From NCBI GenBank assembly GCA_002928965.1, contig PERU01000006.1, positions 62,001 to 126,000 on the forward strand: a stretch of 64,000 bases of DNA, written 5' to 3'. The stretch comes from Methylomonas sp. Its GTDB lineage: Bacteria > Pseudomonadota > Gammaproteobacteria > Methylococcales > Methylomonadaceae. The translations under genes were made by a program, and so were the position numbers. Positions 9,949 through 51,543 of the stretch are shown piece by piece. Below the pieces are notes generated by a model that did not search any database, was not told the DNA's origin, and saw only the letters and a list, made by a program, of their open reading frames with translations. The first letter of the stretch is position 1; the number at the start of each line of letters is the position of its first letter.

Positions 9949-12942
9949 TCAACTGGCCCTGGAAAGTTCACGTAAGGCTTGCGCCAGTTGCATCGCGGTA
10001 TCGCGTGAGGACTGGACCATGTGACTTTGCTTGCCGATGCTAAAGCGCAGATCGACTACATCGCGTGAATTCGATAACGAAACATTCGATCCGGCGTTCG
10101 ACATCAACACCGATTGGCTGACGGCCTGTGACACCGAGCCACCCAGGGCCAGTTTCGGCATCGGTGGCAGGAAGCCGGCATTAAGCGCGGCGAAAAAGCG
10201 TTCGCCAAATTGCCGAACCGATGCGGCACGAATCACAAACTCACCGCGCGACAACAAAGCCCGAACCGAATCCGAGGTTTCCGTACCCGGGCCGAACACC
10301 TTGCCCGATACCGGGCGAAAGCCATCACCAAAGCCACTGAACCCAGCACTGATCGCTTGCCCACCTTCCGCCAGTTGCTGGATCAATCCACCCTGGGCAT
10401 TGGTATAGACTTTCTGCACATAGATGGTGTGATTGCTGGTCGTCGAGCGCAGTAACTCTGACAGTGCCGATCGATACAAACTCATATCCGGTTGCGGGGT
10501 ATGGGTTGCTGACGTAGGTTCCGATAGTGCCAGTTTGGCGTCCTGCACAAACGACGTCAGTTGAGTGCGCGGTTGTTCGAACGAAATTAGCGCCGGAATT
10601 TCCACGCCGCTGCCGGACAGGGTCGATTTCAAGGACTCAATGTCGGCCAGCACTTTGCTGGTATCCGTCTGCACCTGAGCGACCAGCGTCAGATTGCCGG
10701 CGTCGTCTTTGAGCTTGGCGAGACTGTCTTCAGCGGCTTGGGCATCCGCCTGGATTTTCGCCAGCAACGGTTCGGCTTCAGTGAGTGCTTTTAGGGCATT
10801 TAAACTGGCTTTAGCCGACTCGATGTCGACATTGAGCTGTAGTTTGTCCTGACCCAGCAGTTGCCCGCGCAGTTTGCCGAGTTCCTCTGACACACCTTCC
10901 AGTGCACGTTTGGCTTCATCGGCGCCGGAGCCTGCAGCCGATGCCGCCTGTTTATGCGCATCACCTAGGGCTTTTAGCGCTTGATCGGCAATGCCGGCCG
11001 ATTCCTTGATTTGACCGATGGCGGTAGCCGCTGCCTGTGCATCGGATACCACGGTTTGAGTAATCGCCTTACCACCTTGCTCGACCTGACGGGTCACCGC
11101 CGTGGCTGATCGTTCTGACAACGCTATGGCTTCCTCAGCCAGTTTACGCGCCTGCTCGAAATTACCGGCAGCCAGTGCGGCTTGCGCCTGAGCCTGCTTT
11201 TCATCGATTTGGCGTTGCCGGTCCTGATAGGCTGCCAGGTCATCCATGCCTTTGCGGGCCAGTTCGCGTATGCGATCTTCCACCGACAATTTCAGATCGA
11301 GTCGGGCCTCGTCAGCGGCTTTGGCCGCCGCCAGATGACGTTGTTCTTCGGCAATCAGCCGATCAACGGTGGAACGGTAGGCTGATTCCAGCTGACTGAA
11401 AATGCTGATCCGCGCTTCGGTGGCCTGACGTTCAATCGCTTGCACATCTTGCCCTGCGGCTTTCGCCAAAGCAGTCGCCTGACTAAAGCTCCGTTGCCAG
11501 GCCGATTCCATTTGCCGGCCACCGGCTTCCACGGCCGATAATTTGTCTCGCTCTGCAGACACCACCGATTGTGCCGACTCACGAATTGCCGCCTGTTCCG
11601 AACGCGCCGCATTTTGTGCAGCCAGTTCCTGACGCTTATAGTTGGCCTCGATATCGGCGACGCGCGCATCCCAGACGGCTTTGATGTCAGACGCAACCAG
11701 TTTGTAACCAGCAGACAGTTGTTTGACGGTTTCACTAGCCTTCTTGGTTTCGGTATCCAGGGATTGCTTGATGGCTTCACCCACCTGGGTTGCAGCCCCC
11801 TGAATCGATTTTAAAGCTTCGGCGGTGCCAGGCAATGCTGCACGCAAGCGTTCTGCGGCCTGGGCCGCGAGCCATAGCTGGGTTTTGACCGACAAAGTGC
11901 CGGTGTTGGCCAGTTCGTCCATCGCGGCTGACAACTGCTGCAATTGCTCGCGCTGCAGGTTCAACGCCTCGATGGCCTGATTGGACTCGCGAATATCCTG
12001 GACCATCTGCACGATGCCACGACCCATTTCCCAGACACCGATCGCCAACAACACCGGCAGAAATCGGGTGACGGTCAGTTTGAGCAGGTTGAACGACTCC
12101 AGCAACTTTGCCACCGCAGCCACGCCTTTGCCGGCCAGAATCACCACCAGGCCTTCGCCGATGATGCGCAAAGCGGCCATCAGTTCGTCGCCATGACTCG
12201 ACACCGTGACCAAACCATCGGCCAACGCCTGCAGGGTGGGCAATGCGGCGGCGGTGATTTGCATGACAATGCCATGCAGTGCCTGATTCACGGTATCCAG
12301 GGTATCGTTGAAATTGTCTGCAGCGCTGGCGGTATCGCCGCTGATCTCGATGCCGAGTTCGCGAAACTTACTTTTAAGTTCCTCAATGCCGCTGCGTCCC
12401 TGGTTCAAAAACGGAATCAATTCCAGGCCGCTTTTGCCGAACAGTTTGACTGCCAGCGCCGATTTCTCAGCACCATCCGGCATACTGGCAAAGGCATCGG
12501 CCAGATCCAGCAACACTTGTTCAGTAGGTCGCAATTGACCCGCCGCATCCGTGACCGACACACCCAGTTGGGCGAACAGTGCGACCTGTTCCTTGGAACC
12601 ACCCGCTGCTTCGACCATCGCCACCGACAGCTTCTTGATACCGGTGGCCAGACCTTCCAGTGAAGTACCGGATTCCTCAGCGATGGGTTTTAGTAACGAC
12701 AGCGACTCGACCGATAAACCGGTTTTCTGCCGCATGTCATTGAGGTCATCGGCCAGATCGATCGCGTGCTTGCCGGCGGTAACCAAACCACCCACGGTTA
12801 AAGCCGCACCCAATCCTGCCAGCACGCCATTGACCGACTTGGCAGCGGTCATCAAGCCTTCCAGATTACCTTTCACCGAAGCAAACGCCTGCTTAGTCTG
12901 ATCAATGGCGGTGATCAGAATCTGGGCGCGATCAGAGGGCAT
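9949..12942 (-). CDS. phage tail tape measure protein
   Basis: 997 residues, the longest tail gene. It sets tail length and contributes to DNA ejection. The N-terminal portion has the typical start (QILITAIDQTKQAFASVKGNL), then a hydrophobic stretch near residues 260-310 (VILAGKGVAAVAKLL, RFLPVLLAIGVW). Several hundred residues of Ala/Gln/Glu-rich coiled coil follow (EEQRHLAAAKAADEARLDL). Gene order after the frameshifted chaperone fits siphoviruses. It overlaps the upstream gene by 11 bases. Confidence 0.9.
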   Translation of the reverse strand: MPSDRAQILITAIDQTKQAFASVKGNLEGLMTAAKSVNGVLAGLGAALTVGGLVTAGKHAIDLADDLNDMRQKTGLSVESLSLLKPIAEESGTSLEGLATGIKKLSVAMVEAAGGSKEQVALFAQLGVSVTDAAGQLRPTEQVLLDLADAFASMPDGAEKSALAVKLFGKSGLELIPFLNQGRSGIEELKSKFRELGIEISGDTASAADNFNDTLDTVNQALHGIVMQITAAALPTLQALADGLVTVSSHGDELMAALRIIGEGLVVILAGKGVAAVAKLLESFNLLKLTVTRFLPVLLAIGVWEMGRGIVQMVQDIRESNQAIEALNLQREQLQQLSAAMDELANTGTLSVKTQLWLAAQAAERLRAALPGTAEALKSIQGAATQVGEAIKQSLDTETKKASETVKQLSAGYKLVASDIKAVWDARVADIEANYKRQELAAQNAARSEQAAIRESAQSVVSAERDKLSAVEAGGRQMESAWQRSFSQATALAKAAGQDVQAIERQATEARISIFSQLESAYRSTVDRLIAEEQRHLAAAKAADEARLDLKLSVEDRIRELARKGMDDLAAYQDRQRQIDEKQAQAQAALAAGNFEQARKLAEEAIALSERSATAVTRQVEQGGKAITQTVVSDAQAAATAIGQIKESAGIADQALKALGDAHKQAASAAGSGADEAKRALEGVSEELGKLRGQLLGQDKLQLNVDIESAKASLNALKALTEAEPLLAKIQADAQAAEDSLAKLKDDAGNLTLVAQVQTDTSKVLADIESLKSTLSGSGVEIPALISFEQPRTQLTSFVQDAKLALSEPTSATHTPQPDMSLYRSALSELLRSTTSNHTIYVQKVYTNAQGGLIQQLAEGGQAISAGFSGFGDGFRPVSGKVFGPGTETSDSVRALLSRGEFVIRAASVRQFGERFFAALNAGFLPPMPKLALGGSVSQAVSQSVLMSNAGSNVSLSNSRDVVDLRFSIGKQSHMVQSSRDTAMQLAQALRELSRAS

Positions 12943-22182: not shown

Positions 22183-24207
22183 TTAGTTAATCCAGCGACT
22201 ACGAATCACACGTCGACCCGTTGGGTTAGTGCCAGAAACAGAAAGGCCACCGCGATGGGTGGCCTCTGTCTGGGGTTCGGCTGGTAACACAGCCGTATTT
22301 GCGTTCGCTGTTGGTATGGGTGGCGGCTTGCCATCTGGCACACCGAGTTGTCGCTCCAGTTCCTGCCAATGCCTCTCCTCAAAACGGTCCAGGCCAGCGG
22401 CACAGGCAGCGGCCCTGGCGTAGACGTAACAGTCCAAAGCCTCGTTACGCTCGCGCATCTTGTGCCATTCCCGCACCGCAAAGCCATGACGGTTGCGACG
22501 GGTCATCAATTGTTCGGCACATAGTTGCTGCACAAACTCGCCATCCACCTTGGGCAAATGCACAAAACCGATGGGATACTGCAAGGTTACGCCATCATCC
22601 AGAACATCGGCGGCTTTGCGCAGGTTGTTGTAAAACTCCAGCTTGGCAATGCTGACCACCACCGAGAACACCTTGATACCGCGTCGCAGTTTTTTGCCAC
22701 CCTGGCTGACATCGACTGCTGTGGGTGTACCGATCAGGGCAGCACCTTTGGCCACACCTTTGACCGCCATGACTCGCGAATCGCGAAGCCGGCGAATAAA
22801 GGCATAGGCCTCCTGGGTAGCAAAGCCGGTATCGATGGCAAACCGAGCTAACGGCAATTGCGCGCCACTCTCATGAGTCCAGGTTTCAGCTACCAGACTG
22901 GCCAGGGATTTCCAGACCTCATCGCGAGCGCTGTCGCCCATCAAAACCCGATGTTCAATCAGCCAGGATTCCTTACCCCGGCCAAAAGCCCAGATCGAAG
23001 CTTCGATCCGATCCTTTTGAATATCGGCGCCTCCGACCAGTAACAAACCACCGCCCGGTACGCTGCCGATTTTGTAATCTTCCCGGCGTTCGATTAAACG
23101 CTGCCAGTCCGGCGCTTCGCCTTCCTCGACCCAGGTTTCACCCAATTCGGTGTTCTTGAAAGTCTTGATGGCAGATGCTGAACCAGACTCCTTGTTGATA
23201 GCGCTTTCCCAGGCAGCGGCGATGTTGCGCCAACTGCGCCAACCGACCGGACTGTATAGCGACGACAGATGAAAGCCGGCAGTTTTAGGCTCTGCTTTAA
23301 TGCCAGAGACTTCAGGTAACTGATCGTCCCCATCCATCATCGAACGCCACTTACCGTGTTCCAACATCCAGGTTTTGTGTTGCTCCGAAATAGATAGTTC
23401 ACAGGCTTCACACTGATAAGCTGCAGTTTCCGGCCGACCCTTTTCCCAGCGTAGTTGCTCAAAACGCAACCACTGCCGGTGTGCGCAATGTGGACAGGGC
23501 AGAAAGTATCGGCGTTGATCGGAAGCTTCGTATTCGCGTTCGATGGCACTGGCACCGGCAATGGTCGGTGTCGAGACAATGAAAATCTTGCGCCGGGCAA
23601 AAGTCCGGGTACGGGCTTCGGCTAGTGAGATGGCATCACCTTCACCATCGACGTCATTCGGGTAACCGTCGACCTCATCCAGAAACAAATACCGCACCGG
23701 CATCGAGCGCAAACCCACCGCGCTGTTGGCGCCGGTCATCACCAGCACACCACCGCGAAACTCTTTCGCCAGAATGGTATTGCCGGCATCGCGACTACGC
23801 GATGGTGCAATCAACTCGGCCAGTACCGGCGACTCCTCGATCAAGGGATCGATCCTTTGTTTGGAGTTACGCTTGGCCATTTCCACGGTGGGCGACACGG
23901 CCATCATCGGACCGGGCGCATGGTGGATCACATAGCCGATCCAGTTATTGCCCATCTCGGTCGCCCCGAGCTGCGCGGCCTTCATGAATACCACGCGTTC
24001 GACCGGTGAGGTCGGCGACAGGCAATCCATAATCGCTTTCAAATACGGTGTGCGACTGGTGCGCCAACGACCGGGCTCGGCCGAGGCCTTGCTCGATAAC
24101 ATGCGATGCCGGTCTGACCATTCGGACACCGATAACAGGGGATCCGGTGTCAGACCTTCTCGCCAGGCCTGTTCAATATCGAAACAGCCTTCGTATTCGG
24201 TATCCAT
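22183..24207 (-). CDS. terminase large subunit, GpA family
   Basis: 674 residues, similar to lambda gpA (641). The N-terminal ATPase has a variant Walker A (KAAQLGATEMGNN) and Walker B VRYLFLDEVDGYP. A zinc-ribbon follows (CPHCAHRQW, CEACE). The nuclease domain has GGADIQKDRIEASIW and RFAIDTGFATQEAY with conserved Asp residues. It packages DNA into the portal and cuts it at cos. Together with TerS upstream, this places the phage in the lambda-like cos packaging group by family. Confidence 0.94.
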   Translation of the reverse strand: MDTEYEGCFDIEQAWREGLTPDPLLSVSEWSDRHRMLSSKASAEPGRWRTSRTPYLKAIMDCLSPTSPVERVVFMKAAQLGATEMGNNWIGYVIHHAPGPMMAVSPTVEMAKRNSKQRIDPLIEESPVLAELIAPSRSRDAGNTILAKEFRGGVLVMTGANSAVGLRSMPVRYLFLDEVDGYPNDVDGEGDAISLAEARTRTFARRKIFIVSTPTIAGASAIEREYEASDQRRYFLPCPHCAHRQWLRFEQLRWEKGRPETAAYQCEACELSISEQHKTWMLEHGKWRSMMDGDDQLPEVSGIKAEPKTAGFHLSSLYSPVGWRSWRNIAAAWESAINKESGSASAIKTFKNTELGETWVEEGEAPDWQRLIERREDYKIGSVPGGGLLLVGGADIQKDRIEASIWAFGRGKESWLIEHRVLMGDSARDEVWKSLASLVAETWTHESGAQLPLARFAIDTGFATQEAYAFIRRLRDSRVMAVKGVAKGAALIGTPTAVDVSQGGKKLRRGIKVFSVVVSIAKLEFYNNLRKAADVLDDGVTLQYPIGFVHLPKVDGEFVQQLCAEQLMTRRNRHGFAVREWHKMRERNEALDCYVYARAAACAAGLDRFEERHWQELERQLGVPDGKPPPIPTANANTAVLPAEPQTEATHRGGLSVSGTNPTGRRVIRSRWIN

Positions 24208-42467: not shown

Positions 42468-42788
42468 GTGCCTTCGATCATGGGTGACAAAATTCGCACC
42501 CTGCGAAAACAAAAAAAGCTGAGTCTGGAAAAACTGGCCGAATTGACCGATTCCAGCAAGAGCTATATGTGGGAACTGGAAAACAAAGACGACCCCAAAC
42601 CCTCAGCAGACAAAGTGGCCAAAATTGCCAGTGTTCTCGAGGTCACCAGCGAATTTTTGATGAGTGAATCAGATGCCTCACCGAGTGACGCCGTCATCGA
42701 TGAAGCGTTTTTCCGTAAATATAAAAGCATGCCGGATGAGACCAAGAAAAAGCTCCGGCAAATACTAGATGTCTGGGATGACGAGTGA
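42468..42788 (+). CDS. ImmR-like XRE repressor
   Basis: 106 residues from GTG 42468, chosen because TAGGAG is seven bases upstream; ATG 42480 is too far from it. The N-terminal XRE HTH (LSLEKLAELTDSSKSYMWEL) is followed by a helical C-terminus (FRKYKSMPDETKKKLRQILD). In ICEBs1-type elements ImmR is cleaved by the ImmA protease to start excision. The next gene is ImmA-like and overlaps it by four bases. Confidence 0.85.
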   Translation: MPSIMGDKIRTLRKQKKLSLEKLAELTDSSKSYMWELENKDDPKPSADKVAKIASVLEVTSEFLMSESDASPSDAVIDEAFFRKYKSMPDETKKKLRQILDVWDDE

Positions 42789-43687
42789 ACGAACCTAAAA
42801 AACCCATGGCGGAAGCCAACCGCATTTCCAAAATACTCAAGCTGACGATGGGCGAAGACCGCTTTCCGGTGAATATCGAGGAAGTGGCAAAAGAAATATC
42901 AAAAAAATATTATCCGGATTCACCCATTACAAAAATTGATGGTAAGGATATGGAGGGCTTCGATGGTTTATTAAAACCCAATAAAGACCGTTCGAAATGG
43001 ATTATTGTTTATAACACTGCGGTTTCGCCTGGGCGCCAACGTTTCACCTTGGCCCACGAGTTTGGGCATTACATCTTGCATCAGGATATTCAAACTGAAT
43101 TTGCCTGTCATCAGGCTTCAAGTGACGATTGGGATGCGACTGAGCGCAGAATTGAACCTGAAGCCGATCTTTTTGCCTCGACTTTGTTGATGCCGCTGGA
43201 TGATTTTCGTACTCAGGTTGCCGGCCAGGAAATCTCGTTTGATCTGTTTGGTCATTGCGCAGACCGTTATGGTGTTTCGCTGACAGCCGCCATTCTCCGA
43301 TGGCTGGAAATCACCGACAAACGCGCCATCCTGGTTGCTTCTCGTGATGATTATCTGCTCTGGGCCAGTTCAAATCGGCATGCCTTTAGATCAAGAGCGT
43401 ATTTTGCCACGCGAAAAAACACCATCCCAGTACCTGAAGGTTCAAACATCCATAGCCTGAACCGCTTTTCCGTCAATCAGTACGAGGTGGTAAAAGCCAA
43501 TATCTGGTTCCCGGAGGAACCTGACAGCGTGCGGTTGACCGAAATGAGCCTAATGTCCGATCAGTACGACTTCACATTGACGCTCCTTTTGATGCCCACG
43601 GCCGACTGGCAATTGCTCAATCACGACGACGAGCCAGATGAAGAGGAGTTGACCGGCTTTATCGGTTATCGCCAGTTCCCAGGGTAA
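42785..43687 (+). CDS. ImmA/IrrE-family metallopeptidase
   Basis: 300 residues from GTG 42785 (GTGA overlap with immR; ATG 42806 is an alternative). Zinc-protease motif HEFGHYILH at residues 91-99 with EPEADLFASTLLMP downstream. It likely cleaves the ImmR-like repressor to release lytic or excision genes. The C-terminal 100 residues are beta-rich, possibly a sensor domain. Confidence 0.9.
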   Translation: MNEPKKPMAEANRISKILKLTMGEDRFPVNIEEVAKEISKKYYPDSPITKIDGKDMEGFDGLLKPNKDRSKWIIVYNTAVSPGRQRFTLAHEFGHYILHQDIQTEFACHQASSDDWDATERRIEPEADLFASTLLMPLDDFRTQVAGQEISFDLFGHCADRYGVSLTAAILRWLEITDKRAILVASRDDYLLWASSNRHAFRSRAYFATRKNTIPVPEGSNIHSLNRFSVNQYEVVKANIWFPEEPDSVRLTEMSLMSDQYDFTLTLLLMPTADWQLLNHDDEPDEEELTGFIGYRQFPG

Positions 43688-44033: not shown

Positions 44034-44536
44034 TGAAGCCATCAACCATATCCCAAATAGTCATGCCAAAGTCCGTCATTGCACAAGTTCTGCAACTACC
44101 GGCGTTGCCGATGCCGGAAATCAGGGCGCTGTGGCAAAAACTGTTCAACACCGAAACCCCAACTCACAACCGCCAGTTTCTGGAAAAACGCCTGGCGTAT
44201 CGATTGCAGGAAAATGAATATCGGAAGCTCAATCCACAATTGTTGGAGCGCAATCAGAAACAGATCGACGCGCTGATCGAAACCGGGAAATTGCGCAAAC
44301 GCGACCGCGATACCCGGCCAGATCCGGGTACGATACTTTGCAGGGAATACCACGGGGTGGAATACCAAGTCACCGTCACGTTAGATGGCCAATACGAATT
44401 CCAGGGTCGTCCATACCCCAGTCTATCGATGATCGCCCGGGAAATTACCGGGACCCGTTGGTCCGGACCTGTCTTTTTTGGGCTCAAAACGTATGAACCC
44501 AAAACACCTGGTAAGAAAACGGGAGGCCGCAAATGA
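44033..44536 (+). CDS. DUF2924-family protein of the recombinase module
   Basis: 167 residues after GGAGG. Typical DUF2924 sequence: MPEIRALWQKLFNTETPTHN, FLEKRLAYRLQENEYRKLNP and GRPYPSLSMIAREITGTRWS (shown as separate short motifs). Nearly always found immediately before a large serine recombinase. Function unknown, maybe a directionality or accessory factor. Coupled to the recombinase by ATGA. Confidence 0.9.
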   Translation: MKPSTISQIVMPKSVIAQVLQLPALPMPEIRALWQKLFNTETPTHNRQFLEKRLAYRLQENEYRKLNPQLLERNQKQIDALIETGKLRKRDRDTRPDPGTILCREYHGVEYQVTVTLDGQYEFQGRPYPSLSMIAREITGTRWSGPVFFGLKTYEPKTPGKKTGGRK

Positions 44537-45888
44537 GCGATGCCATCAAACGCCGAATTCGCTGCGCTGTTTACACCCGAAAATCCACCGAAGAAGGTCT
44601 CGACCAGGACTACAATTCCATTGATGCCCAACGCGATGCTGGTCATGCCTATATTGCCAGCCAGCGCGCCGAGGGCTGGATTGCTGTGGTCGATGACTAC
44701 GATGATCCGGCGTTTTCCGGCGGCAACATGGAGCGCCCGGCACTAAAACGGCTAATGGCCGATATCGAAACCGGCCTGATCGATGTGGTGGTGATTTATA
44801 AAATCGACCGACTGACCCGCAGCCTGGCGGACTTTTCCAAAATGGTCGAAGTATTCGAACGTCAGGGGGTTTCGTTTGTCTCGGTAACCCAGCAATTCAA
44901 TACCACCACCTCCATGGGGCGGTTGATGCTGAACGTCCTGCTATCGTTTGCGCAATTCGAACGGGAAGTCACCGGTGAACGGATCCGCGACAAAATTGCC
45001 GCCAGTAAACGCAAAGGCATGTGGATGGGCGGCATTCCGCCGTTGGGCTACGATGTGGAAAATCGCCGGCTGGTGCCAAATCCAAAAGAGGCCAAACTGA
45101 TCAAACAAATCTTCCAGCGCTTTGTTGAACTCGGTTCCGGCACGATGCTGGTCAAGGAGTTAAAACTCGAGGGCGTCACCTCCAAGGCCTGGACTACCCA
45201 GGACGGCAAAGTCCGCGACGGCAAACCGATCGACAAAAGCCTGATCTACAAACTGCTGAACAATCGGACTTACCTGGGCGAGTTGCGTCATCGTGAACAA
45301 TGGTATCCCGCCGAACATCTGCCGCTTATCGACCGGGAGCTTTGGGAAAACGTTCAGGTCATTTTGGCCAGCAATTCCCGGATAAGGGGCAACAATACCC
45401 GAGCAACGGTAACGTACTTATTGAAAGGCATCGTCTTTGGGCATGATGGCCGCGCCTTGTCGCCCTGGCATACCACCAAGAAAAATGGGCGGCGTTACCG
45501 CTATTATGTGCCGCAACGTGACGTCAAAGAACATGCTGGTGCATCCGGTTTGCCTCGTTTGCCGGCCGGTGAATTGGAATCGGCCGTCATGGATCAATTG
45601 CGCGGCATTCTGCGCTCGCCCGCATTGCTGCCGGATATTGTGCCCAAGGCTGTGAAACTGGATGCAACGCTCGATGAAGCCAAGGTGACGGTCGCCATGA
45701 CCAAACTGGATGCCATTTGGGAGCAGCTATTTCCGGCCGAACAAACCCGAATTGTCCGGTTGCTGGTTGAGAAAGTCATCGTTTCCCCCTGCGATTTGGA
45801 GGTTCGTCTGCGCTCGAACGGTATTGAACAAATGGTGCGTGAACTGCTGCCCATCACCCGAGAAGCACCGCAGGAGGTCGTCGCATGA
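44533..45888 (+). CDS. large serine recombinase (probable phage integrase)
   Basis: 451 residues. The resolvase domain has YTRKSTEEG (catalytic Ser18), YKIDRLTRSLADF, and FEREVTGERIRDKIA. The recombinase domain follows (IPPLGYDVENRRLVPNPKEA, LLNNRTYLGELRH), then a C-terminal region that lacks an obvious full zinc ribbon. It probably integrates and excises the prophage. No tyrosine integrase is present in the window. Attachment sites could not be identified by eye. Confidence 0.9.
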   Translation: MSDAIKRRIRCAVYTRKSTEEGLDQDYNSIDAQRDAGHAYIASQRAEGWIAVVDDYDDPAFSGGNMERPALKRLMADIETGLIDVVVIYKIDRLTRSLADFSKMVEVFERQGVSFVSVTQQFNTTTSMGRLMLNVLLSFAQFEREVTGERIRDKIAASKRKGMWMGGIPPLGYDVENRRLVPNPKEAKLIKQIFQRFVELGSGTMLVKELKLEGVTSKAWTTQDGKVRDGKPIDKSLIYKLLNNRTYLGELRHREQWYPAEHLPLIDRELWENVQVILASNSRIRGNNTRATVTYLLKGIVFGHDGRALSPWHTTKKNGRRYRYYVPQRDVKEHAGASGLPRLPAGELESAVMDQLRGILRSPALLPDIVPKAVKLDATLDEAKVTVAMTKLDAIWEQLFPAEQTRIVRLLVEKVIVSPCDLEVRLRSNGIEQMVRELLPITREAPQEVVA

Positions 45889-46337
45889 ACGAAATCCAAA
45901 TCCAACTAACGGGTGCCACCGATGTTATGGCCACGAGCGATGGCCGGCTCACGTTATCGATACCCATTCAGATTAAACGGCGAAGTGGATGTAAAAAGGT
46001 CGTGTTGCCCAACGGTGAAACGGCAAAACCCAAAGCCTGGAATATCAAGGCTACGCCGCTGCAGTTGGCGTTGGCCCGTGGCCACCGATGGCTGGCCATG
46101 CTGGAGTCGGGCAAGGTCAAATCGCTCAAGGAAATTGCTGAACGCGAAAACATCGATAACAGCTATGTCAGCAGGATGGTCAATCTGACCTGCCTAGCGC
46201 CCGAGATTGTGGCAGCCATTCTTGAAGACGAGTTACCGGACCACATCACGTTGTTTGAATTGGCGGTTGATCCTCCGCCATTGTGGGAGGAGCAATATGC
46301 TAAATGCGCGGGAACTTGCGTTGACTTGATAAGATAA
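45885..46337 (+). CDS. HTH protein of the recombinase operon
   Basis: 150 residues, coupled to the recombinase by ATGA. SIPIQIKRRSGCKKVVLPNG at the start, then a ParB/KorB-like HTH (KSLKEIAERENIDNSYVSRM) and a helical tail (ILEDELPDHITLFELAVD). Standard fourth member of the DUF2924/recombinase module. Probably DNA-binding and possibly a recombination directionality factor. Confidence 0.8.
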   Translation: MNEIQIQLTGATDVMATSDGRLTLSIPIQIKRRSGCKKVVLPNGETAKPKAWNIKATPLQLALARGHRWLAMLESGKVKSLKEIAERENIDNSYVSRMVNLTCLAPEIVAAILEDELPDHITLFELAVDPPPLWEEQYAKCAGTCVDLIR

Positions 46338-46738
46338 AAAAATACTGGTGTCAGCAATTATGCAGATCGTGGAGTAGAAGTTTGTCGGCGCTTTTTCTGG
46401 AGGACCGGATCGGTAAGGATTGCACATGCGCAACATATGCGGTTGGCGAGAGTTGGTTACGGTGATCTGCAGTTAAACAGTTGACAAGCAATTCAGCGAA
46501 AATTATTCTAAGGGCTCATCACATCGCCAGTCAGCTTTCGCTGCGAGTAGTCTTTATACAATGATAGGGGTTATCCTGAATTGTAAGGTTTGGCAACCTT
46601 GGTTACTCATTTATTGCCATGAGGCAGTTACTTGATGTTTACCGGGAGGATAGGCTTTTGGCCACCTCGGACCGTATACATAAGGCCCCGCTTAGAACGG
46701 ATGTCATACGGCATTAACCCTTAACAAGGTGAATGCTC
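46338..46738. other. non-coding gap after recombinase operon; expected attachment-site region
   Basis: 400 bases with no credible gene. Attachment sites of serine-recombinase prophages usually lie next to the integrase gene, so the right-hand att site may be here. No tRNA, strong terminator or clear repeat was recognised. Confidence 0.4.
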
Positions 46739-47134
46739 ATGCCTATTAAAAACTCAAACATCAAACAAGAATCGTTGGCTGTTCATAAACAGCTATCTTA
46801 CGAACAACTCGTCGCCGCTTGGTTGTTAAGCGACGGTTGGGAAGTATTGGTTCCGGCAATAGATCACGGCAAAAAAACTGACTTGGTCATAGCGGACGAC
46901 AATAATTATTACCGTATCCAGGTTAAAACAGTCGAGTCTAACCATGATTCGATCAACGTCGAAAACAAATGGGGAAACGCTAAAATCGACTATGTGATCT
47001 ACTTTTCTAGAACTGCCGAATGGGGATATATCACGCCGGCTTTTTCAGATAACAAAAAGCGATTGAACTCGCCTGATCATATAAAGTTTCATCAACACCC
47101 CGTCAACTTTTTGAAAGCATTCAAGAAAATCTAA
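46739..47134 (+). CDS. PD-(D/E)XK nuclease-like protein, intron-endonuclease family
   Basis: 131 residues from ATG 46739; ATG 46733 lies directly on the AAGGTGA ribosome site. The fold has AAWLLSDGWEVLVP, then KTDLVIADDNNYYRIQVKT, which gives the D...QxK active-site pattern, and IDYVIYFSRTAEWGYITP. It resembles nucleases associated with group I introns (PF11645-like). No intron was seen next to it, so a free-standing nuclease or relic is likely. Confidence 0.68.
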   Translation: MPIKNSNIKQESLAVHKQLSYEQLVAAWLLSDGWEVLVPAIDHGKKTDLVIADDNNYYRIQVKTVESNHDSINVENKWGNAKIDYVIYFSRTAEWGYITPAFSDNKKRLNSPDHIKFHQHPVNFLKAFKKI

Positions 47135-47227
47135 AGAGGCTCGATGGAGCGACGGCGTAAACCCTGCGTGAAGGCTCTCAAGTTGGGTTTGCGCTAAGCT
47201 GACAATGCAACATTTGGTGTAATTTCA

Positions 47228-47565
47228 TTAACGAACGATAACCAACTCCTTCCAGTCAGTGGTATAGCGCTGTGAAATCCGCTCCGCCTTGGGTTTCCAG
47301 CTTTTGTCAAAGCCTGACGAGGCGATAGATACCGCTTTCGGAATCGTCGATTGATCTTATCGACAGCCTGCATTAGCGGCGCATTTTCAGAGGGCAGTTC
47401 GCCAGAGGTCAATTCAAACAGATCGAACTGTGCCGGTGAGGCGGCGGGACGGATGGCGCTCAGTTGCACGCCACATTTCTGATAGCCAAAGCCGGGTTTA
47501 TAGATCGCTTTGAGACTATTCAATGCCACACGGATGGTTTTGCAAGGGAAAGCCACTGCTTTGAT
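47228..47565 (-). pseudogene. umuC: 3' fragment of umuC (DNA polymerase V subunit), frameshifted
   Basis: Reads the UmuC C-terminus: PCKTIRVALNSLKAIYKPGF, GYQKCGVQLSAIRPA, then ENAPLMQAVDKINRRF. A one-base loss in a C run near 47340 then shifts the frame. The rest resumes in another frame as FDKSWKPKAERISQRYTTDW and ends KELVIVR at 47228. The N-terminal catalytic two-thirds is absent. This is a decayed remnant of a SOS mutagenesis gene. Confidence 0.85.
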
Positions 47566-47971
47566 AATAAAACAGTCGAATATTGAAACTTTTGACTCAC
47601 TTTGACAGTGACTGCCGCTCAAAATGGTTATTTTTCAGAGGTTCCTTAAGTACTCATGCACTGAAAAACCGGCAAAACCAACTGAACGATCTTCCATAAG
47701 AGCCGTGCAACACGAGGCAGTCTGCGGCTTGTGGGCAGGACATTGTTGGAATCTCGGTAAAAAATGCCGTTTTATTTATGAATGAGTACTTATTTTCTAA
47801 CTAATTGATAATATTTAACTTGTCTGTATATGACATAACAAACAGAACAGTGATTTCAATCAAAGTCAGATGCGGATCGTTTTCTCATTCGACAAAAGCA
47901 CGTCCCAACGCTTTAAGCGTTCACGAATTGAAAGAAAATGAATGCCGGGTTTGCTTGTCTGAATATGCAAG
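47566..47971. other. intergenic AT-rich gap between umuC remnant and hypermodification-like operon
   Basis: About 400 bases with no gene supported on either strand. No strong terminator was recognised for the leftward operon that ends at 47972. Confidence 0.4.
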
Positions 47972-48949
47972 TTAATCAATTGTAGCGAAATATTTTTCAG
48001 GTATTGATTGGTTTAAACCCCACTTTGGAGGGTAGAAAACGTTGATGCGGGTTTTGTTAATAGAAAATTTTTGTTTGATTTTTGATCTCCCTCCGATAGC
48101 TATCTCTGGGCTATATGCACGAGCATATTTATCAATTTCGCAAAAGAGATTCTGGCAGTCAATCAATTGCAATGGTCTGCCAAACAAATCTTGAAACTCT
48201 ATATCTCTACAAGAAAACTCTTCGTGTTGACGCTCAGCAACGTATTGAATAACTTCGCTGGGTGTTAACTTTCCCGTACTACTGAAGCATTTTTGTATGC
48301 CTCGTAATGCACCTGGTCCTGGGACAATAAATTCACTTTCCAATCCACAATCAAGATTGCTGTATGCAAGATCAATAGTATATTGGTACGCAAGAAAATC
48401 GCCAAGAGTAGGATAGCTTTTTAAAATATTAAAAACTGTTTTTAGACTATTAGAGCCTGCAATTTTATCTGGAACATTATCCTTCATCATGCTTTCTAGT
48501 AGTACCAGATTATTTTGATGTTTACGCGAAAAACCGAATTCTCTGACACCTGACGGCATTATATAAGCAGCAGAATATATTTTTTTTTTGCTTTCAATTT
48601 GCTTTGTTAAAATTGCATCATATAATTGAAAGTCATAATCTTCGTAACTAACGTTAAAATTTAGAGCGATAGATAGATTTTCCCATGTAGATATCCGATT
48701 AAAAAAACGAAAAAGCAATGTTCGGAAAAAAACCTCATGCGGAGATTGATCGCCCGTATGAATAACATTCTTTATGAGGAATTGACTAACTCTATCAGAA
48801 GCACGATAAGCGTTAGTAAAACGATAAGTCTGTAGAATAGGATCGTCAGTTAAATCAATGCTTCTACCTTCAAGGCGGTTATAGAAAATATTTTGACGTT
48901 CTGCTGCAAATTTCCAATACAACTCGTAAATTTTAGTTGTTTGGATCAT
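47972..48949 (-). CDS. 5-hmdU-kinase-helical / alpha-glutamyl-thymine pyrophosphorylase-like protein
   Basis: 325 residues. The N-terminal portion has the family hallmark DDPILQTYRFTNAYRASDRV and FRTLLFRFFNRISTWENL. Later it has LGDFLAYQYTIDLAYS and FIVPGPGALRGIQKCF, a helical glycosylase-like fold. Related proteins modify 5-hydroxymethyl-uracil in phage DNA or belong to bacterial clade-3 relatives of unknown role. No P-loop kinase motif is visible here. Third gene of a coupled operon; its ATG overlaps the upstream stop (ATGA). Family call is from recognition, moderately sure. Confidence 0.7.
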   Translation of the reverse strand: MIQTTKIYELYWKFAAERQNIFYNRLEGRSIDLTDDPILQTYRFTNAYRASDRVSQFLIKNVIHTGDQSPHEVFFRTLLFRFFNRISTWENLSIALNFNVSYEDYDFQLYDAILTKQIESKKKIYSAAYIMPSGVREFGFSRKHQNNLVLLESMMKDNVPDKIAGSNSLKTVFNILKSYPTLGDFLAYQYTIDLAYSNLDCGLESEFIVPGPGALRGIQKCFSSTGKLTPSEVIQYVAERQHEEFSCRDIEFQDLFGRPLQLIDCQNLFCEIDKYARAYSPEIAIGGRSKIKQKFSINKTRINVFYPPKWGLNQSIPEKYFATID

Positions 48950-49740
48950 TTGCTCTTTTTTGTTTCAACGCGATTTTTATTGTTGTTGGCTTGGGTGCTA
49001 GAGCTTTGTTTTTCCCATTGTTGTTTATGTTCGTCAACGAGACGATTTAAAAATACGTAATGCTGACTAATTGTATCCCAATGGGAATATGCAAGTGAAA
49101 CTCCGCTTATTACAGCAGCAAATAAGAGTCCTCCGACGGTCTTTATGCCTAGAATCCACCAGCTAACAGATTTGTACTTTTCTTCAACTTCAGATATTTT
49201 AGTAGTAAGCGCGTGAATTGAGTAAACCTCATCCGTAGAAATTTGATTTAATACGCTTATAGGTATTTCGGAAAACCCTTCCTTAGTCCTAGGTAGGGTA
49301 TCAATTTTATCAAGATTCGCATACCAAATTAAAAAGCATTCTTCATTTCTTTTAAGATGGATAGGACTAGGGCCTGCGTTGTAAACGGAAAAAAGTAAGT
49401 TTCCTTCAAAACCAGGATCAACATGAAAACCAGAAATATTTATTAAACCCTTATACTTAAAACCTGCTTTCATTGATATGAAAGCAATTGCATTTTTTGG
49501 AACTTTAACTTTTTCTTCAGTTAAGAGAAAAGAGAATTGTCCAGGTGGGATTACGAATGCTTGATTTTCTTCTAATGAGCGTTTTGTATGCTGGCTATTA
49601 CGATTATGCCGATCTTTCGTAACAAATATTTCTTTACCGACTCTAAGAGTATAGGAGGATTGTGCAACTCTTTCTAAATCACAAGGAGTAATAAGATTAG
49701 GTAAGTGTTGTTTAAGAGTGCTGCTACTCCAGAAGGTCAT
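48946..49740 (-). CDS. membrane-anchored dCTP-deaminase/dUTPase-like protein with altered active site
   Basis: 264 residues. Residues about 30-145 have the Dcd/dUTPase trimer fold: FVIPPGQFSFLLTEE, then GFHVDPGFEGNLLFSVYNAG. The conserved Asp (about 108) is kept, but the Glu that catalyses deamination in Dcd (LEFYN position) is Ser, and the SSLAR motif is SMKAG. A short coiled region leads to one transmembrane helix (about 194-218, WWILGIKTVGGLLFAAVISG) and a charged tail. It likely binds rather than deaminates nucleotides; deaminase activity is doubtful. Second gene of the operon. Confidence 0.75.
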   Translation of the reverse strand: MTFWSSSTLKQHLPNLITPCDLERVAQSSYTLRVGKEIFVTKDRHNRNSQHTKRSLEENQAFVIPPGQFSFLLTEEKVKVPKNAIAFISMKAGFKYKGLINISGFHVDPGFEGNLLFSVYNAGPSPIHLKRNEECFLIWYANLDKIDTLPRTKEGFSEIPISVLNQISTDEVYSIHALTTKISEVEEKYKSVSWWILGIKTVGGLLFAAVISGVSLAYSHWDTISQHYVFLNRLVDEHKQQWEKQSSSTQANNNKNRVETKKSK

Positions 49741-49757
49741 ATGAAATCTTTTCGTTT

Positions 49758-50348
49758 CTACCTAGAGACATAGTGATCAAAAAAAATAGACTTTTTCTTG
49801 ACGCCCAACAATCTAGACGGAACTTCGGTTATCAAATCAATCTTATAAAATGAAGCGGCAGCTAACATCAAAGAGCAAATCGCAACAACGTTTTCAGTTA
49901 TTGATTCCCTGTAGGCATAGGGCTCCAAGTGATCAACTGATTCACAAGCTTTTGCCAGGTTACCAACAATTACAGGAAAAGATCTTACTAGCCACAAGGG
50001 GTCTTCAGTGTTGGTTTTATTAGTTGAAGAAATAGCTCGCCCCAAATCATCAATACTAGAAATATTGGGTATATTCTCAAACGCCAATTTATCAGATATA
50101 CGGATGTTTAGCGTATTGAAACAGGTGATAGAGATAATAAACGAATCAATGATGTTTTTTCTCAAAACCGTTTCATCATTGCTATTCAAAATGCAATTGC
50201 AGATATTGCCTGAGTACTTAGCAAAATGAAGCGCCATGTGGTTGAGACGCTGATGGATATTGAGGCGAGTAATTTCTTTATGAAACAACTCATCATGATC
50301 TAGCTGACCTGTTTGTAAAGCAAACAGTTGTTCTTCAATGCTACTCAT
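49758..50348 (-). CDS. helical protein, MazG-like all-alpha NTP pyrophosphatase resemblance
   Basis: 196 residues, mostly alpha-helical. Two similar halves: HQRLNHMALHFAKYSGNI with IDSFIISITCFNTLNIRI, and NLAKACESVDHLEPYAYRES with ENVVAICSLMLAAASFYKID. The last resembles the C-terminal helices of MazG-like pyrophosphohydrolases, but the acidic ExxE metal motif is not clear. It may bind or hydrolyse nucleotides. First gene of the operon, 17 bases before the Dcd-like gene. Confidence 0.55.
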   Translation of the reverse strand: MSSIEEQLFALQTGQLDHDELFHKEITRLNIHQRLNHMALHFAKYSGNICNCILNSNDETVLRKNIIDSFIISITCFNTLNIRISDKLAFENIPNISSIDDLGRAISSTNKTNTEDPLWLVRSFPVIVGNLAKACESVDHLEPYAYRESITENVVAICSLMLAAASFYKIDLITEVPSRLLGVKKKSIFFDHYVSR

Positions 50349-51126
50349 GATTTTGCCCTGACTCCCTCTTTAATATTTAAATCTTGTAATCTTTGACCAA
50401 TTTTAGTTTAGCTACATTCGGTATTAACCACTATGTTAGATGTCAGAACAAGTTGCTTAGAGAGCGATGGATAAATTTAATCCATCATTACTAGCACTTT
50501 AAAAAAGTATGACAGTATAAATACCTATTTTGTGCTGTTCCGCTTCAAGCTTGAACAAAGAAACCGTAGTTATACTCTGTTAAAAGCTACTCTACTTGAA
50601 GGTTAAGCGCGAAAGAAGCCAGTAAGCTGACAAAAAATCGCCTTATTACAACATATTATAATTAAAAAATTTATGATGTATAGGTATTGTTGACGGGGCT
50701 GCATGCTTAAACGCAATGAGCTGAATTGTAAATCAGTAGATTTTCACAATATATAGTGCAAATATTCATACTAATACACTACATATGCCTTTTCAGTACA
50801 AAGCCCGAGACTCCAGCAAACGGTTTCACCTACACTCTTATAAGACTGAGTTACACCATAATACTTTCTAAGGTTTGTGTTAGTGATGTTGTTTCCATCG
50901 CCACCCAATGCCAAAATAAAACCGCTTGAAAAGTCCGAGCGTAACCGATTGAAATATAAGTCGTTAAATTTCTATCCTTGCGGACTTCGACTTTTTGAGG
51001 CTGGCAGAGTTGGAGAGAAAATGGTCCAAGAGAGAGTGGAATTGGGCCAAAACACTGTCGAAATGGCGTATGGTGAAGTCCGCAGGAACCTGCACGAAAC
51101 CCCGCGTACCCGCAGCAACAGGCAAT
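50349..51126. other. AT-rich gap upstream of the operon, next to ssrA
   Basis: About 780 bases. The promoter of the leftward operon should lie just right of 50348. Several short open frames near 50850-51215 on both strands lack ribosome sites and run into the ssrA gene and terminator, so none is accepted. The region probably marks the join between island and core. Confidence 0.4.
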
Positions 51127-51157
51127 AAAAAAGCCCAACTGAGACCAGTTGGGCTTT
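51127..51157 (-). terminator. ssrA Rho-independent terminator
   Basis: AAAGCCCAACT / AGTTGGGCTTT hairpin followed by Ts on the minus strand, seven bases beyond the tmRNA CCA end. Confidence 0.92.
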
Positions 51158-51163
51158 GATAAT

Positions 51164-51543
51164 TGGTGGAGGTGGGGGGAATTGAACCCCCGTCCGCAAG
51201 CACTCCGCCACAAGCTCTACATGCTTATCCCGCGCTTTTAATTTAACTGTTGACTACCCGTCGGGCCAAGAGGATCAACAGCGATTTCGATTGGATTTAG
51301 CGATTCAGGCTCCGAACAAAGCCCTGGCGCGATCTTATGTAATATGATCCCTGAACGCCCCCGAAGAGACTCCAGACGCATAAGTACATCTGGTCAGAGA
51401 AGTGGTGCAGGTTTTAAGCTGCTAAGGCCACTGAGTAGTTTTCGTCGTTTGCGAATACTTTAAGTTCAGTAGGTTTTACGAGCGGTACTGTGCTCGGCAT
51501 GCACCTGAGGTTTTGCTACCCACGTCGAAGCCATGTCACCCCC
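51164..51543 (-). ncRNA. ssrA: transfer-messenger RNA (tmRNA)
   Basis: About 380 bases. The 5' end GGGGGTG pairs with CACCTCC ahead of the encoded ACCA 3' end (7 bp with one G-U pair), forming the tRNA-like acceptor stem. The T-arm GGTTCAATTCC type sequence is near the 3' end. The internal reading frame encodes the tag ANDENYSVALAA followed by TAA (near 51411-51449). It rescues stalled ribosomes and tags products for proteolysis. The gene appears intact. Confidence 0.95.

Follow-up and report, generated by a model that had tools for sequence, protein, structure and literature searches.

What do the relatives of phage DNA-disguising enzymes do in bacteria? Close kin of these enzymes are encoded in bacterial operons resembling immune systems, and to our knowledge nobody has shown the function of the bacterial forms. 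We analysed one such operon in a 64,000-nucleotide stretch of a Methylomonas sp. genome (assembly GCA_002928965.1, contig PERU01000006.1, positions 62,001 to 126,000; hereafter the window, in whose numbering its features are given). As proposed by an earlier interpretation made from the letters alone (the sequence-only reading), the open reading frames (ORFs) of the window include three intact, coupled genes at 47972-50348, all on the minus strand: g1 (49758-50348), g2, also called DcdTM (48946-49740), and g3 (47972-48949), with a 17-nt gap between g1 and g2 and a 4-nt overlap between g2 and g3. The first encodes an all-helical protein of 196 amino acids with a weakly MazG- or dimeric-dUTPase-like fold; the second, 264 residues with a dCTP-deaminase-like domain, a C-terminal hydrophobic segment and a charged tail; the third, a 325-residue standalone HMUDK_hel protein (PF18723) without a kinase domain that resembles PUGT and aGPT-Pplase. 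The chances seem to us evenly balanced that the trio is a compact nucleotide-sensing, membrane-acting anti-phage defence candidate, in which g2 would be the receptor and effector, g3 the source or detector, and g1 the setter of the threshold.

We analysed the relationships of g2. Its residues 15-139 (49324-49698, minus strand) match the Pfam family DCD (PF22769; E 2.3e-15, 57.5 bits against a curated cut-off of 27), its best solved match is 9ln0 (E 5.9e-13 by sequence, 4.7e-26 by profile against solved chains), and in PHROGs it matches a dCTP deaminase family. g2 shares this domain with the dCTP deaminase/trimeric dUTPase superfamily, but differs in lacking the deaminase Glu, in an altered SSLAR region, in an added membrane segment, and in that no terminal phosphate-closing arm was seen. 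In the alignment with solved E. coli-type dCTP deaminases, Ser118 (49387-49389, minus strand) stands where E. coli Dcd has the catalytic Glu of LEFYN, and MKAGFKYKG replaces the SSLAR region; the sequence-only reading had already noted the Ser and an altered SSLAR. Our searches found 32 g2-type ORFs; the window's own copies (L001 and L082) were counted as one, three plain dUTPases (L042, L044, L059) were excluded, and six proteins (L015, L022, L028, L039, L061, L092) were left outside the alignment A1 and tallied separately. The Glu column holds S or A in all 22 rows of A1 and S, S, S, G, R and R in the other six, while the GFHVDP stretch and Asp108 are invariant in the 22 rows; L022 and L061 are remote relatives without the GFHVDP motif. 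Nor was a replacement found at another position, as that reading had allowed for: E76 and E37-type positions aside, there is no new invariant Glu, and E76 is also present in ordinary Dcd. Loss of this Glu excludes ordinary deamination and leaves hydrolysis possible. Together with the retention of GFHVDP and Asp108, it thus suggests that deamination was lost and the pocket conserved.

The second feature of g2 is its tail. Residues 196-214 (49099-49155, minus strand) form a membrane segment predicted from a Kyte-Doolittle window. The 19-residue mean hydrophobicity of the C-terminal region is at least 1.45 in 22 of the 22 A1 proteins (at least 1.6 in 21) and at least 2.1 in all six members outside A1. 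The predicted anchor of the sequence-only reading is therefore a property of the group, as a missing Glu and a hydrophobic stretch after the core go together in 28 of 28 g2-type proteins, g2 itself counted. Relatives of g2 are also encoded by two IMG/VR contigs (L096, L097), one with Nmad2 and the other with ImmA nearby.

It is possible that g2 (or g1) is instead a hydrolase that depletes deoxynucleotides, in the manner of dCTP-deaminase and dGTPase defence, with g3 as the trigger. A Dcd fold with an invariant Asp108, and the weak match of g1 to MazG and dimeric dUTPases, would suit such an activity. However, the deaminase Glu is missing throughout the group, g2 scores under the cut-off of the dCTP deaminase equivalog TIGR02274 (75.7 versus 92.8 bits), PADLOC gave zero matches at E≤1 for g1, g2 or g3, its dCTP-deaminase defence models included, and the conserved membrane tail is left unexplained. 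We consider this explanation quite unlikely.

The sequence-only reading had linked g3 to the helical part of 5-hydroxymethyldeoxyuridine (5-hmdU) kinases and to thymine pyrophosphorylases, and this kinship was borne out. g3 belongs to HMUDK_hel (E 1.5e-98, 330 bits against a curated cut-off of 25) over a single Pfam stretch, residues 5-283, with no match to a kinase domain, so that it does not qualify as a 5-hmdU DNA kinase. Relatives such as L012 do carry a kinase domain beside HMUDK_hel; as g3 lacks one, the family name is not to be taken as 'kinase'. Its match in PHROGs, phrog_2396, is of unknown function. The structure model of g3 (predicted local distance difference test, pLDDT, 92.6) has as its best fold match 8z2n, the 5-phosphomethyl-2'-deoxyuridine glycinyltransferase of a Pseudomonas phage (prob 0.97, E 0.031, template-modelling (TM) score 0.37-0.41), followed by at least five entries of 8-oxoguanine DNA glycosylase at E 3 to 9. 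By sequence, no solved relative of g3 was found, and its phage homologues used as queries yielded no glycosylase or transferase.

A sequence search found relatives of g3 in 177 of 50,697 phage records. That of phage Montesquieu is annotated as alpha-glutamyl/putrescinyl thymine pyrophosphorylase (aGPT-Pplase) clade 1 and adjoins a thymidylate synthase/pyrimidine hydroxymethylase gene; that of LuckyBarnes adjoins a thymidylate synthase and two glycosyltransferase genes. Across four bacterial and four phage proteins 16 residues do not vary, and g3 has all of them. With the phage thymine hypermodification proteins (the HMUDK helical domain, aGPT-Pplase clade 1, PUGT gp46 and 8z2n) g3 thus has in common PF18723 and these 16 residues, and its best fold match is among them; it differs from them in its context, which in the window includes no kinase, hydroxymethylase or polymerase, and its identity to them is 26-37%.

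We tallied 80 HMUDK_hel loci, the counts being lower bounds as the stretches end at contig ends. In 33 of the 80 an HMUDK_hel ORF of at most 361 amino acids stands alone, and these, with the window, make up alignment A4. A thymidylate-synthase-like gene is present in 55 of the 80 loci, a thymidylate synthase in 32, a thymidylate-kinase-type domain in 42 and a small carrier-protein-like gene in 41; the last was read as an acyl carrier protein (ACP) from its DSL motif, with no Pfam match. These partners, with ACP or AcpS-like genes in many of the relatives, and the phage thymine-hypermodification proteins as the closest functional relatives of g3 are what would be expected if g3 installed or edited a DNA thymine modification, g1 and g2 managed the precursor pool, and the modified DNA were itself the purpose, as a restriction protection or a mark. 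The window's operon, though, has no thymidylate synthase, kinase or hydroxymethylase gene, g3 lacks a kinase domain, the genome has only one HMUDK_hel gene, and it is hard to see what such a pathway would do with a membrane tail on a deaminase-dead Dcd. We therefore regard hypermodification as an unlikely alternative. Two other HMUDK_hel loci may be mentioned: a genome of the same family as the window's (G422; L123 3-16066) has a large operon of ACP, XRE, ImmA, thymidylate-synthase-like, HMUDK and thymidylate synthase genes, beside genes that by eye resemble Tn7-type transposition genes, and the Acinetobacter plasmid NZ_CP113934 (L138-L141) has two HMUDK_hel copies, both interrupted.

The identity of g1 is less clear. 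It has no family match in Pfam or NCBIfam at E≤1, and its match in PHROGs, phrog_19333, is of unknown function. Its model (pLDDT 80.8, built from five rows only) gives the highest TM-score, 0.47, among the 50 matches listed with 5myi (prob 0.72, E 1.7), which comes from work on dimeric and trimeric dUTPases, and 0.42 with the T. brucei dUTPase 4dkb. Against viral models, unnamed proteins come first (best E 0.0015), with several named MazG or NTP-PPase-like proteins, and among solved chains the g1 profile retrieved 5ie9 (E 0.24) and 1vmg (E 0.77) and nothing else. Alignment A2 of 13 homologues shows H37, H41, K44, D68, N78, E136, D139, H140 and E142 to be invariant. The metal site of MazG and dimeric dUTPases we take to be ExxE...ExxD; E136xxD139 is invariant in A2, and in place of an invariant ExxE there are H37, H41, K44 and D68. 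g1 resembles these all-alpha nucleoside triphosphate pyrophosphatases in size and in its helical build, but has no sequence-family match with them and does not conserve the ExxE part of the site. We tried and rejected g1 as an established MazG protein: 13 of 13 homologues are without a Pfam family, barring single chance matches, and hhalign against 12 MazG_C-type proteins gave Prob 2.6. The MazG-like character claimed by the sequence-only reading thus finds weak support; judged from the model, a MazG or dimeric-dUTPase-like fold is plausible.

A phage homologue of g1 was also noted: the T4-like Acinetobacter phage Ac42 encodes a protein with 25% identity (L133 2480-3070), which could be a counter-measure, and a protein of phage Acj9 is among the best fold matches of g1; among viral contigs, 177 pattern matches to g1 yielded zero confirmed copies.

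Is the trio a unit? Contiguous g1-g2-g3 on one strand was found in nine genomes or plasmids, the window counted: three methanotroph metagenome-assembled genomes (L002; L003, counted once as L095 and L120 are the same contig; L004), Nitrosomonas (L005), an Acinetobacter plasmid with g3 in two pieces (L085), a Rhizobium plasmid (L086), a genome of the same genus (G334) and one of the same class (G562). L005 and G562 have downstream neighbours in common and thus probably reflect a single insertion event. The trio of G334 is 31 kb away from ssrA, with the relative orientation reversed, and its proteins (70, 49 and 75% identical to those of the window) are hardly closer than those of Nitrosomonas (62, 49 and 69%), so that separate acquisition is likely. 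In six of 12 pairwise gene comparisons nonsynonymous divergence (dN) was 0.20-0.48 versus a synonymous divergence (dS) of 1.9-4.4; the other six were saturated. The recurrence of order and strand in eight other genomes or plasmids, with dN far below dS, indicates more than chance. Occurrence is otherwise sparse. Among 201 genomes of the order HMUDK_hel turned up in 4, among 398 of the phylum in 5, and in none of 14 controls, with one copy in the window's genome. For g1 the counts were 1 among 274 genomes of the class and 3 among the 398 of the phylum, the window's genome included each time.

The sequence-only reading had asked if the genes occur apart in most genomes, and here the answer is mixed: the trio recurs, but g1 is present in only 4 and g2 in only 21 of the 80 HMUDK_hel loci, at least 17 of those 21 have no g1, and g1-g2 pairs without g3 exist. 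The trio as one obligate unit is thus rejected. In 11 distinct loci g2 comes immediately after g1, whether or not g3 directly follows. This order holds in both of the other genomes that A2 retrieved. Among 10 plasmid records found by g1 alone, g2 directly follows g1 in six, the contiguous trio is present in two, and HMUDK_hel is within the fetched stretch in five; among nine that match g2 strongly (E≤2e-35), six have g1 and five an annotated ImmA gene. The tighter module is thus the g1-g2 pair, with g3 as one partner among several.

This pairing, and the absence of g3 from several of the 11 loci, may suggest a toxin-antitoxin-like pair, with g2 a membrane toxin, g1 its inhibitor and g3 an unrelated gene alongside. 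An obligate antitoxin would, however, forbid the many g2 genes that have no g1, and the order of the full trio recurs in Methylococcales, Nitrosomonas, Acinetobacter and Rhizobium. We find this explanation improbable.

The company of the relatives is informative as to the process in which they take part. XRE genes are present in 54, ImmA/IrrE in 53, TIR in 26 and Nmad2 in 24 of the 80 HMUDK_hel loci, and a SLOG domain at L029; a MazG-type gene was counted in 34, a rough figure as the search model was impure, trained with one HMUDK_hel protein. On a plasmid of the haloarchaeon Natronomonas (L084 4983-6527), g1 is followed by a DUF4231 gene (E 6e-28) and then TIR, with HMUDK_hel divergent upstream. 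The DUF4231 protein matches SLATT below curated cut-offs, and its fold differs from that of g2; it takes the place of g2 after g1, and as SLATT/DUF4231 proteins are two-helix membrane effectors, such an exchange would be expected if g2 were itself a membrane effector. The swap, the conservation of the tail and the presence of TIR, SLOG and ImmA nearby speak for a role in conflict over one in metabolism. They also bear on the possibility that the trio merely cleans house of unusual nucleotides, with no role in defence: all three folds are those of nucleotide or base enzymes, but the patchy, mobile occurrence and the TIR, SLOG, ImmA and DUF4231/SLATT-like partners of the relatives make it highly improbable.

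Other neighbours of g2 were noted. A uracil-DNA-glycosylase-family gene is annotated near g2 or g1-g2 in L089, L092 and L101-L103 (checked with Pfam in L089 and L092), and a MazG-type gene is also near g2 in L101-L103. DUF1643, which adjoins g2 in L083 and L122, was considered as a glycosylase standing in for g3 and dropped; a kinship to uracil-DNA glycosylases found no support in hhalign against the glycosylase-family proteins of L089, L092 and L101-L103 (Prob 0.3).

How might such a defence system work? g2, deaminase-dead and probably a trimer, would sense nucleotides by binding them while anchored in the membrane, and would double as effector. A particular pyrimidine nucleotide, perhaps a modified thymidine or uridine derivative, would fill the sites between its subunits; the membrane helices would then rearrange, damaging the membrane and stopping the infected cell. 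g3, as a relative of phage thymine-rebuilding enzymes, may make or release the ligand, or may detect phage DNA or nucleotides with unusual thymines, and g1 would most likely keep the ligand low or restrain g2 until a threshold is passed. What the analysis shows is the order of the genes, their conservation, the missing Glu and hydrophobic tail of g2, family kinship and fold resemblance, and the patchy distribution; we infer the trimer, the toxicity and the trigger, as well as what the ligand is and what g1 does, the two weakest steps. A bolder version, a new signalling logic in which a thymidine-derived, modified pyrimidine nucleotide that a phage-type thymine-rebuilding enzyme makes or releases is the second messenger, a trimeric deaminase-dead Dcd the receptor that opens the membrane, and g1 a threshold setter and an interchangeable adaptor able to work with a DUF4231/SLATT-type effector as well, is offered tentatively and is more probably wrong than right.

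Several results weigh against the defence reading. Among the ORFs of 46337-51164 there is no thymidylate synthase, kinase, TIR or Nmad2 gene, so that the trio stands without the genes of the larger conflict operons, and the PADLOC result counts here too. The solved 'dCTP deaminases' 8y1w and 9ln0 likewise have no Glu at the aligned place, and its loss is thus not unique to sensors; Asp108 is also kept by nucleotide hydrolases of the superfamily, making hydrolysis by g2 possible. The fold match of g3 to 8z2n has an E of only 0.03. The g1 model has no match to solved chains at E≤0.001 (best E 0.09, designed helix bundles leading), and to this is added the low Prob against MazG_C-type proteins. 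Finally, the near-complete genome G614 has g1-g2 and no HMUDK_hel; as far as the plasmid sequences go, L083, L089 and L092 carry g1-g2 without g3, HMUDK_hel is absent from L088 and L091 too, and L101-L103 have g2 with ImmA-type operons and no HMUDK_hel. g3 is thus not the sole source of the signal.

The genomic setting agrees with the mobile, AT-rich surroundings that the sequence-only reading described: the trio has a G+C content of 35.6% versus 52.1% for the whole window, occurs patchily, and has the 3' end of ssrA (51164-51543, minus strand) at a distance of 0.8 kb. The operon is probably mobile. Insertion of the trio into the ssrA 3' end is unsupported, as that end is not repeated in the window, where its best match elsewhere spans 14 nt, and no att duplication was seen there. 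At least three (L126, L127, L129) of seven congeners whose ssrA regions were read have type I restriction-modification genes directly beside ssrA, these three being the ones scanned by family. This neighbourhood would suit a variable site at which defence genes arrive, and proves nothing about the trio itself. By family scan, a prophage-like block (9949-45888) adjoins the trio, with a tail gene (9949-12942, just under the Pfam cut-off), a gpA-type terminase (22183-24207), an ImmA/IrrE gene (42785-43687) and a serine recombinase (44533-45888). Between prophage and trio sits an ORF of the PD-(D/E)XK family (46733-47134; PF11645, above cut-off); a further ORF, 47194-47622, resembles DUF4113 and IMS_C below cut-off and is perhaps the remnant of a UmuC-type polymerase.

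The sequence-only reading did not recognise the trio from earlier work. We found no description of the exact trio in the literature searched, although prior description is possible in specialist comparative-genomics and hypermodification work, which lay outside the search. The domain class, in contrast, has been flagged as defence. In the passages available of the DefensePredictor study, protection of E. coli MG1655 is given for 42 of the 94 units tested; the ten defined domains for which a defence role was newly validated include a 5-hydroxymethyluracil kinase and a thymidylate synthase, and aGPT-Pplase, MazG, MazG-C, dUTPase and a nucleotide-modification (NMAD) domain are predicted, unvalidated (PMC13092281). 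The trio has this domain vocabulary in common with those systems, and its HMUDK_hel relatives have thymidylate synthase, Nmad2 and MazG_C in their loci. The same passages establish neither HMUDK_hel as part of the 5hmdUk protein nor a system that it shares with thymidylate synthase, and they do not mention a membrane-anchored, deaminase-dead Dcd with g1 (PMC13092281). To judge from these passages (PMC13092281), the class is in print as validated or predicted defence; the exact trio is a variant that we did not find described in the literature searched.

With three genes, the trio is the smallest version of these operons seen here, which makes the question of signal and receptor testable. If the proposed reading is true, bacterial immunity would gain a novel class of signal molecule together with a novel membrane effector.

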